A stretch of 40,615 bases of DNA from Longimicrobium sp. (GTDB taxonomy: Bacteria; Gemmatimonadota; Gemmatimonadetes; Longimicrobiales; Longimicrobiaceae): assembly GCA_036389795.1 (NCBI GenBank), contig DASVWD010000159.1, positions 1 through 40,615 on the forward strand, written 5' to 3'. Positions 3,360 through 21,732 of this stretch are shown in pieces (the stretch's first letter is position 1; each line of letters opens with the position of its first letter). Below the pieces are notes generated by a model. That model made no database searches, was not told the origin of the DNA, and worked only from the letters and a program-made list of their open reading frames with translations. The position numbers and the translations under genes were made by a program.

Positions 3360-3450
3360 CTGAAAAGCCTCACACAGAGGACACGGAGGACACAGAGAAG
3401 TTCGAATCCGTTTCCGCTGTTCCTCTGTGTTCTCTGTGTCCTCTGTGTGA
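3360..3450. repeat. Interspersed repeat family A, copy 2
   Basis: It begins CTGAAAAGCCTCACACAGAGG like the left side of copy 1 and the inverse of the right side of copy 3. The central arms are CACAGAGGACAC units and their inverted CTCTGTGTCC counterparts (about 3372-3400 and 3420-3450). The outer terminal repeats seen in copy 3 are not recognisable, so this copy looks internal or decayed. Confidence 0.75.
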
Positions 3451-19530: not shown

Positions 19531-19692
19531 GATACCAGGTTGCCGAGCATAGTTCTGGTTCCAAACAGATTGGAATCACACAGAGAACACAGAGGGAACT
19601 GAAGACGCGATTGAAGTTCTCTGTGTCCTCCGTGTCCTCTGTGAGAGGCTTTTCAGAAGCTGTACCTGAACGATGCTCCGCAAGGTGGTATG
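19531..19692. repeat. Interspersed repeat family A, copy 3, MITE-like with terminal inverted repeats
   Basis: The ends at 19531-19559 (GATACCAGGTTGCCGAGCAT start) and 19664-19692 are inverted repeats agreeing at about 23 of 29 positions. Inside is a second inverted pair of CACAGAG-type units (about 19571-19591 and 19617-19645). The whole 162 bp can fold into one long hairpin. The left half matches copy 1 inverted, including CAGATTGG and CCAGAAC. It lies between the histidine kinase and the small peptide gene. Confidence 0.8.
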
Positions 19693-19718
19693 ATTCCAAA
19701 TCTTTGGGGTCTCTCTCG

Positions 19719-19764
19719 AAAAACCAGGAACGCAGTCGGCGCCTGGCCGACCAGGGTCAGGCGC
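19719..19764 (-). terminator. Terminator of the lanthipeptide-like gene
   Basis: On the minus strand GCGCCTG pairs with CAGGCGC (19758-19764 and 19739-19745), partly overlapping the stop codon, with a second CCTGG/CCAGG pair inside. About 15 bp further on comes a run of five T (19719-19723), so it is a plausible intrinsic terminator. Confidence 0.55.
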
Positions 19765-19990
19765 AATCCGCCGCCACGGTCTCGAGCTGGAAGCACCCGT
19801 CGGGACAGGCGGTGTCCTGCGAGCAGCCGTACGTGCAGTCGAAGTTGGCGTCGGTCGGCTCGCACGGGCCCAGGAACGACGGCGGCGCCGGCTCGATCTG
19901 GTGCGCCCTGAGGGTGCCGCGCCCCCGCGGAGCGTCCGGGGTGGTCTCGAACGAGATGATCTCCAGGTCTTCCAGCTTCAGCTTCTTCAT
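19757..19990 (-). CDS. Orphan lanthipeptide-like (pinensin-type) precursor peptide
   Basis: A 77-residue peptide beginning MKKLKLEDLEIISFETT. The LxxxSFxT leader pattern is the one seen in pinensin-type class I lanthipeptide precursors, which are abundant in Longimicrobium-like genomes. The second half is a Cys/Ser/Thr-rich core with Cys at 43, 52, 56, 62, 66 and 76 and several Ser/Thr (T46, T53, S57, T60, T71) that could form thioether rings. The open frame extends 15 codons upstream, but MKKLKL is the expected start. No LanB/LanC dehydratase or cyclase, protease or transporter is in the window, so modification would need enzymes elsewhere. It is divergent from the PI-PLC-like gene. Function as antibiotic, signal or structural peptide is not shown. 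Confidence 0.72.
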   Translation of the reverse strand: MKKLKLEDLEIISFETTPDAPRGRGTLRAHQIEPAPPSFLGPCEPTDANFDCTYGCSQDTACPDGCFQLETVAADCA

Positions 19991-20047
19991 GGCTCCGCGC
20001 GGTACCGAAGTGCCTTCGCTTGCCCGCGTTCGCAAGGCATTGTCCCA

Positions 20048-20204: not shown

Positions 20205-20233
20205 TTGACACGGATCGGGGGCTTGCAAATAAT
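20205..20233 (+). promoter_or_regulatory. Strong sigma-70-type promoter of the PI-PLC-like gene
   Basis: TTGACA (20205-20210), exactly 17 bp, then AATAAT (20228-20233): a full -35 and a five-of-six -10. It rules out the TTG at 20233 as the start codon and leaves a leader of about 40 nt before the ATG at 20281, with AAGGA at 20267-20271. Confidence 0.8.
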
Positions 20234-20280
20234 TGCACGAAATGATGATCACGCCCTCTTCATGGAAAGGACTCACGGGC

Positions 20281-21732
20281 ATGAGAGACCCATGGTATTG
20301 CGACGAGGACGCGGTGTTTCCCGACCGCGCGGATTGGATGAGCGCACTCCCCGACGATCTGCCACTCCACAGGATGTCCATCCCCGGCACCCACCAGACC
20401 TGTGCTCGGCGCCTGGGAGCGGCCTTCGTGTGCCAGGCGCTGAGCCTGGCGAGCCAGCTCAGGGCCGGAATCCGCTTCCTCGACATCCGGTGCCGCCACT
20501 ACAAGACCGGGATGCCGATCCACCACGCGGCCAACTATCAGGGCTACTGGTTCGACAAGAAGTTCCAGTTCGAAGACATGGCGGACCCCTGCGTGCTCGA
20601 CGACTGCATCGCCTTCCTCAGGGCCCATCCGAGGGAATGCATCATCATGTCCATCCGGATGGAACTGCCCTGGTACAGGGAAGACGCGGCGGACGCGGCG
20701 GCCAACGGGGGCGAGTGGTTCAGCGACTGCGTCTGCAAGTCCATCGAGCATACCCGGGACTTCTGGTTCGACCCCGCCACCCTCGGCGCGCCCGAGCGTC
20801 CGCCGCCGCTCCTGGGCATGGTCCGCGGCAAGATCGTCCTCGTCAGGGGCTTCCTGGACAACTTCAGGGCGACGTGGCCGGACGAGGTCAGGACCCGCGC
20901 GAGAGGCTGGCAGAGGGACGGCGCCGTGCTCCACGAACAGGATGAATACAGGGTCTATTCCTGGTCGCTGGGAGCCAAGTTCAACTGGATCGCGAAGACC
21001 TCCGACCGCGCCCGCGGCCTGAATCTGTGGTACAGCAACTTCACCAGCGGCTCCGAGGGGCTCGCGCCCTCGGACGTGGCAAAGGCCATCAACCCGAGGG
21101 TGGCCGGCTACCTCGACCTGTGCCGCCCGACGTCCGGCCCCGACGGCGTGGGAATGCTGGCCATGGATTTCCCCGGCGACGGATTGATCCAGAAGGTCGT
21201 CGCCCTCAACTCCGCGCCGCAGCCGCCCGTGCGGACGACGCTCTGGCTCGCCGACGAGTTCGGCGGCATCTCCCGCCCCGCGGGCGAGGACAATCACGTC
21301 TCCATTCTCCCGGGACGCTCGCTGGGCGGGCTGGAGGTGAAGTACCAGGACGGCTACGGCCTCGTCAACCTGCGCCTCTTCGACTCCACCGGGAGGGTCT
21401 TCGTGCCGATCCGGCAGTGGTCGGACGGGCGCTACGGGGGTGGATGGATGTGCCCGGACTTCGACGGCGACGCCCCCGTCCGCGTGAACGGGCCCATCAA
21501 CGGCATCCAGTTCGCCAAGCATGAGAAGTGGGGGATCGTGAACGCGCGCGTCCACCTGAGAGGCAAGCCCGAGGAGGCCTGGGAGCCGTGGCTCACCCGC
21601 GCGGAAACGGACGCGACGGCGGAGTGCGTCTCCGAGCCCCGGGTGCTCAACGGCGCTCAGACGGTGTTCTGGCTCAACACCTGGAGAGAGGGCGGGAAGG
21701 GCATCGTCGACGGCCGGATCGCCTACGCCTGA
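20281..21732 (+). CDS. Phosphatidylinositol-specific phospholipase C-like protein (PI-PLC X domain)
   Basis: A 483-residue protein whose first 170 residues match bacterial PI-PLC: MSIPGTH with the catalytic His at about 38, then AGIRFLDIR with the phosphate-binding Arg at about 70, the second catalytic His in IHH (about 82), and FLRAHPRECIIMSI. In these enzymes the two His residues cleave the lipid to diacylglycerol and cyclic inositol phosphate. The residue after the first His is Gln instead of the Asp of the Bacillus enzyme, so activity may differ. Residues about 320-483 form a beta-rich domain I do not recognise. There is no signal peptide, unlike secreted PI-PLCs. GC content is visibly lower than in the neighbours, suggesting transfer. 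Start set by the promoter and AAGGA. Confidence 0.82.
   Translation: MRDPWYCDEDAVFPDRADWMSALPDDLPLHRMSIPGTHQTCARRLGAAFVCQALSLASQLRAGIRFLDIRCRHYKTGMPIHHAANYQGYWFDKKFQFEDMADPCVLDDCIAFLRAHPRECIIMSIRMELPWYREDAADAAANGGEWFSDCVCKSIEHTRDFWFDPATLGAPERPPPLLGMVRGKIVLVRGFLDNFRATWPDEVRTRARGWQRDGAVLHEQDEYRVYSWSLGAKFNWIAKTSDRARGLNLWYSNFTSGSEGLAPSDVAKAINPRVAGYLDLCRPTSGPDGVGMLAMDFPGDGLIQKVVALNSAPQPPVRTTLWLADEFGGISRPAGEDNHVSILPGRSLGGLEVKYQDGYGLVNLRLFDSTGRVFVPIRQWSDGRYGGGWMCPDFDGDAPVRVNGPINGIQFAKHEKWGIVNARVHLRGKPEEAWEPWLTRAETDATAECVSEPRVLNGAQTVFWLNTWREGGKGIVDGRIAYA

Follow-up and report, generated by a model that had tools for sequence, protein, structure and literature searches.

A gene encoding a lanthipeptide-like precursor lies in a Longimicrobium contig whose other genes provide none of the enzymes expected to modify such a peptide. 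The locus raises the question of whether the peptide belongs to a lanthipeptide pathway and, if so, which enzymes would act on it. The window, i.e., the whole stretch of DNA analysed, comprises positions 1-40615 of contig C159. Judging from comparative sequence analysis, the gene, here called P0001, probably specifies the precursor of a class I lanthipeptide, one that bears a pinensin-type leader, comes from a dispersed library and is modified via the LanB and LanC of another contig, C225. The features of the locus are as follows.

19757 to 19990, minus strand: precursor peptide gene P0001, 77 aa plus stop, ATG start (translation, orthologues and leader model).
19901 to 19990, minus strand: leader, residues 1-30 (MKKLKLEDLEIISFETTPDAPRGRGTLRAH), from alignment and Cys composition, with a predicted leader/core boundary.
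19760 to 19900, minus strand: core, residues 31-77, with six Cys and six Ser/Thr (residue list).
19793 to 19843, minus strand: conserved core motif F-D-C-T-x-G-C-S-x-x-T-x-C-x-x-x-C, residues 50-66 (six-homologue alignment).
19993 to 19996, minus strand: Shine-Dalgarno-like GGAG, separated from the ATG by 2 nt, which is unusually close (sequence).

The P0001 open reading frame is genuine. It translates to MKKLKLEDLEIISFETTPDAPRGRGTLRAHQIEPAPPSFLGPCEPTDANFDCTYGCSQDTACPDGCFQLETVAADCA*, with all six Cys in the C-terminal 47 residues and a Cys-free N-terminal part of 30 residues. Among the 559 reading frames of the window, a leader model built without P0001 and without its two orthologue rows picked P0001 with E=3.5e-12, the runner-up frame reaching E=0.22. 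The NCBIfam model leader_pinensin (NF038180) matched residues 2-17 with E=6e-4 and 19.7 bits, against a cut-off of 24 bits; the two direct orthologues of P0001, from two related genomes, are above that cut-off with 25.4 and 35.7 bits. The translation and the leader model bear out the original prediction of a lanthipeptide-like precursor. With P0001 as query no relative was found in the genome collection, where an alignment of the LanB C-domain did give matches, and the plasmid and phage collections presented no match.

The leader carries an L.L..L.V.SF.T block, which is what leader-guided class I enzymes would read, and closes with the GTV/GTL motif of the family. Across 37 aligned leaders, residues L9, F14 and T26 are invariant, and Cys accounts for 0.1% of leader residues versus 16.3% of core residues. 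Upstream of the leader, GGAG-type sites are common before other precursors, GGAGGA being present in 18 of 66 cases versus 3.1 expected. Pyrimidine-rich words were seen before other precursors and are absent before P0001. A shared upstream regulatory motif was considered and dropped, only Shine-Dalgarno-type and codon-biased words having stood out.

Pfam scans of the window genes presented no LanB, LanC, LanM, peptide exporter or lanthipeptide protease. This agrees with the earlier statement that LanB, LanC, protease and exporter are missing within 20 kb on either side, a distance that is all the window can show. The transporters in the window are a generic RND pump, an outer-membrane efflux protein and an Mla-type ABC set, and other neighbours encode a PAS/GAF histidine kinase, a glycan branching enzyme and a heavy-metal P-type ATPase. 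The divergent neighbour (20233-21732, ~499 aa) has a PI-PLC-X match of 19.9 bits, below the 23.1 cut-off, and is preceded by a sigma-70-like promoter match, TTGACA-17-AATAAT, at 20205-20233. A dispersed repeat, TCTCTGTGTNCTCNGTGTNCTCTGTG and its complement, occurs at 19575-19700, just downstream of P0001, and again near position 3372; it is also found at the end of the LanB/LanC contig (L068, position 15288).

The genome-wide check for split LanB and LanC genes that had been proposed did locate such enzymes. One split LanB, composed of a glutamylation protein (PF04738) and an elimination protein (PF14028) that adjoin on contig C225, was found in the source genome, a 7.5 Mb draft of 285 contigs with an estimated contamination of 3.75%, in which a further enzyme set might have escaped detection. 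Its N part matches the LanB-type dehydratase chain 6ec7 with E=5.5e-25. A LanC of ~700 aa follows, and its WCHG and SLCHG motifs align with LicM2 and LanC-like chains. The genome hence encodes a LanB, here split, and a LanC, as expected of a class I system, and the original prediction did not fall for want of lanthipeptide enzymes. No precursor was seen on C225 as assembled (15.4 kb). An ABC exporter and a subtilase are encoded on contig C206, beside an array of at least 11 precursors. The exporter presents 75% identity to the exporter of a relative's lanthipeptide operon, and the D, H and S motifs of the subtilase are intact.

Nor is P0001 the stand-alone orphan it was taken for. A 34-position leader model, applied to 61 related genomes for the counts, yielded at least 129 leader-bearing precursors in each of the source genome and its congeners G002 and G008 (all 129 scored candidates were positive). 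The search for further precursors with an SFET leader thus returned many of the SFxT type, and P0001 is one of at least 129 in its own genome. Counts were 84 in G009, 79 in G014 and 55 in G015, and 19, 11, 5 and 1 in four further genomes, with no leader in the remaining 51 of the 61. Among the matches listed, the precursors of the source genome occupy at least 40 contigs, 25 of the 40 having a single listed precursor. The genomes with the leader and those with the LanB elimination domain (PF14028) are the same 10 of 61, neither occurring elsewhere among the 61; this co-occurrence falls within one bacterial family and is not phylogenetically independent. Three congeners, two of them only 86% complete, have neither the leader nor the elimination domain.

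In relatives, precursors and enzymes are found side by side. In G006 the only precursor immediately precedes LanB-N, LanB-C and LanC, a cis arrangement, and in G002, G008, G014 and G015 precursors lie beside the LanBC operon. The order in relatives, as assembled from several loci, is LanB-N, LanB-C, LanC, precursors, ABC exporter, HlyD protein and subtilase. The C225 enzymes and the many SFxT-leader precursors support the proposal that the enzymes for P0001 act in trans, although trans modification itself is our inference.

The core had been described as unusual for a lanthionine-forming peptide, with six Cys and Asp/Pro-rich spacers. This part of the original prediction does not hold: the six spaced Cys are accompanied by six Ser/Thr, one N-terminal to each Cys, and are thus nothing out of the ordinary here. 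Each of the six Cys can be matched to a private Ser/Thr located 2-6 residues upstream, and P0001 hence combines, as a class I lanthipeptide precursor would, a leader with a core having enough Ser/Thr for its Cys. The pairs that may form rings are S38-C43, T46-C52, T53-C56, S57-C62, T60-C66 and T71-C76. Twelve core columns are invariant across six homologues drawn from five species: C43, T46, F50, D51, C52, T53, G55, C56, S57, T60, C62 and C66. Nine of them are of ring-forming residue types (five Cys and four Ser/Thr), the rest being F, D and G. The G009 homologue and one of the G008 copies have neither the last Thr nor the last Cys of the core, a joint absence that would fit the loss of one ring.

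The placement of Ser/Thr was further compared with shuffles over 163 non-redundant cores, with Cys positions fixed. Ser/Thr occupies the Cys-5 position in 44% (z 21), versus ~22-24% when shuffled; for Cys with no other Cys in the five preceding positions, the share is 41% (z 10). For 85% of Cys a private Ser/Thr partner is available 2-6 residues upstream, versus 65% in shuffles, and cores in which every Cys is matched to an upstream Ser/Thr amount to 31% versus 6%. Ser/Thr at Cys-1 reaches 48% versus ~22-24% shuffled and is enriched also without neighbouring Cys; this enrichment rivals that at Cys-5, and simple ring rules do not account for it. G020 and G006 (L042, L043, L063) have precursor cores built from near-perfect C-[ST]-x repeats, e.g., CSNCSGCSNCSACSNC, far more regular than other cores.

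A Cys-rich secreted or metal-binding peptide, in which the leader is an export or targeting signal and the Cys form disulfides or bind metal with no lanthionine, would also account for a core of this kind, and we regard this explanation as unlikely. The Cys content of the cores (~16%), a favoured Cys-Cys spacing of 4 and the heavy-metal P-type ATPase, which is encoded with a repressor ~6 kb from P0001, are in its favour. However, the placement of Ser/Thr relative to Cys is non-random even with Cys fixed, and the homologues conserve Ser/Thr as well as Cys; in addition, the leaders are restricted, among the 61 genomes, to those with the LanB elimination domain, and the LanBC operons of relatives contain precursors.

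The original prediction would also have failed had the reading frame not been conserved, yet the core motif is kept in other species. The orthologue in G002 presents 61% identity to P0001 (E=5.6e-27), and core pN is 0.18 versus a pS of 0.47 for this pair. For P0001, pairwise comparison gives a core dN/dS below 1, which is not so for all pairs; over 47 codons the measure is noisy. Synteny between P0001 and its orthologues was sought, and the gene neighbours differ and are not conserved. The core has been kept and its genomic place has not, because the core columns are invariant while the neighbours of the homologues vary.

These results bear on the possibility that P0001 is a decaying orphan left after cluster loss, neither expressed nor processed, which we hold to be improbable. 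No promoter-like site was found for P0001, its Shine-Dalgarno sequence is weak and close, and the gene is alone on its contig, all of which a decaying gene might present. Retention of the core motif in five species despite different neighbours, and a core pN below pS between P0001 and G002, nevertheless speak against decay, and lone precursors are common in the source genome. P0001 is presumably expressed.

Other lanthipeptide enzymes occur in the source genome. Contig C28 (L069 5450-14334) has two LanM synthetases of ~1040-1140 aa, a few kb apart, and contig C285 (L070 9895-13593) encodes a LanC-like protein next to a HopA1-domain protein and to a 375 aa protein that has no Pfam match, a locus which we take to be possibly a class V-like lanthipeptide system. 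The C28 LanM genes and the C285 pair belong to other systems than the C225 set. That P0001 is modified by either of them is very improbable: both exist in the genome, but LanM is absent from G008, which has at least 129 leaders, as well as from G006, G007 and G020, it is present in G003, which has no leader, and neither the C28 stretch nor C285:100-118 kb yielded an SFxT precursor. LanM was accordingly rejected as the modifying partner, its distribution not tracking that of the leaders.

With P0001 read as a class I precursor served by C225, modification would proceed as follows. The leader would dock on the genome's single split LanB, i.e., the glutamylation and elimination proteins of C225, which would dehydrate Ser/Thr of the core. 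The adjoining LanC would then link every Cys with a dehydro residue upstream of it, so that as many as six thioether rings could form. Docking, dehydration and ring closure are suggested by homology and co-occurrence. The C206 ABC exporter would export the peptide, and the C206 subtilase would remove the leader, which is without a GG site of the C39 type. At the scale of the genome, we lean, on balance, towards one class I split LanB/LanC set that modifies well above 100 scattered precursors in trans. A common core grammar, with Ser/Thr five residues before Cys, may allow a single enzyme of relaxed specificity to close rings in cores that are unrelated.

If this is true, the library exceeds the prochlorosin and synechococsin libraries reported in the literature surveyed and involves another enzyme class in another phylum. 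Natural lanthipeptide systems with one enzyme and many substrates are, in that literature, class II and cyanobacterial, and a class I equivalent from a different phylum would add an independent example. The enzyme set would likely tolerate very varied cores, which would be useful for ring-peptide libraries. Closely related species range from no precursor to more than 100, which offers a comparative test of what such a library is for, and mining clusters beside enzymes would miss most such peptides. Searches for the leader or the lanthipeptide class together with Longimicrobium or Gemmatimonadota retrieved no description of such a library in the part of the literature covered; the Longimicrobium terrae genome report only lists lanthipeptide clusters (PMC7291104).

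In comparison with known systems, the closest in organization are the prochlorosins and synechococsins, where one LanM serves many scattered precursors, 29 for ProcM and 79 for SyncM (PMC10783134). The resemblance lies in a single enzyme and in precursors that have similar leaders, differ in their cores and are dispersed one by one or in tandem, and the source genome, with one split LanB and at least 129 leaders on at least 40 contigs, has the same one-set, many-precursor organization. It is no prochlorosin system proper, which has a ProcM-type LanM and a Nif11 leader. Prochlorosins and synechococsins are class II, with a bifunctional LanM, a Nif11-type leader and a GG site, whereas the Longimicrobium system presents a class I split LanB plus LanC, a pinensin-type leader without GG and at least 129 precursors.

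The pinensin-type class I lanthipeptides of Bacteroidota are alike in the NF038180 leader block and in the split LanB, which is stated for pinensin (PMC7268733). SFVT leaders are found in Fulvivirga, Pedobacter and [Flexibacter] sp. ATCC 35208 loci. The Bacteroidota genomes tested that have a related split LanB present 1-19 leaders, mostly GG-ended where read, whereas the leader here ends in GTV and the cores are longer, with many Cys; the P0001 leader, ending in ...RGRGTLRAH, departs from the GG-type end of the Bacteroidota loci. Fulvivirga genomes (G061-G063; L177, L179) have 10-19 pinensin-type leaders over many contigs, and on an Ignavibacteria contig a LanB C-domain has six SFVT-type ORFs in its vicinity. 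These groups may harbour similar libraries of smaller size. Within the same genus, the single-precursor cluster of G006 shares the leader type, the split LanB and the LanC, and it differs in that its one precursor is in cis, whereas P0001 stands alone with the enzymes on another contig.
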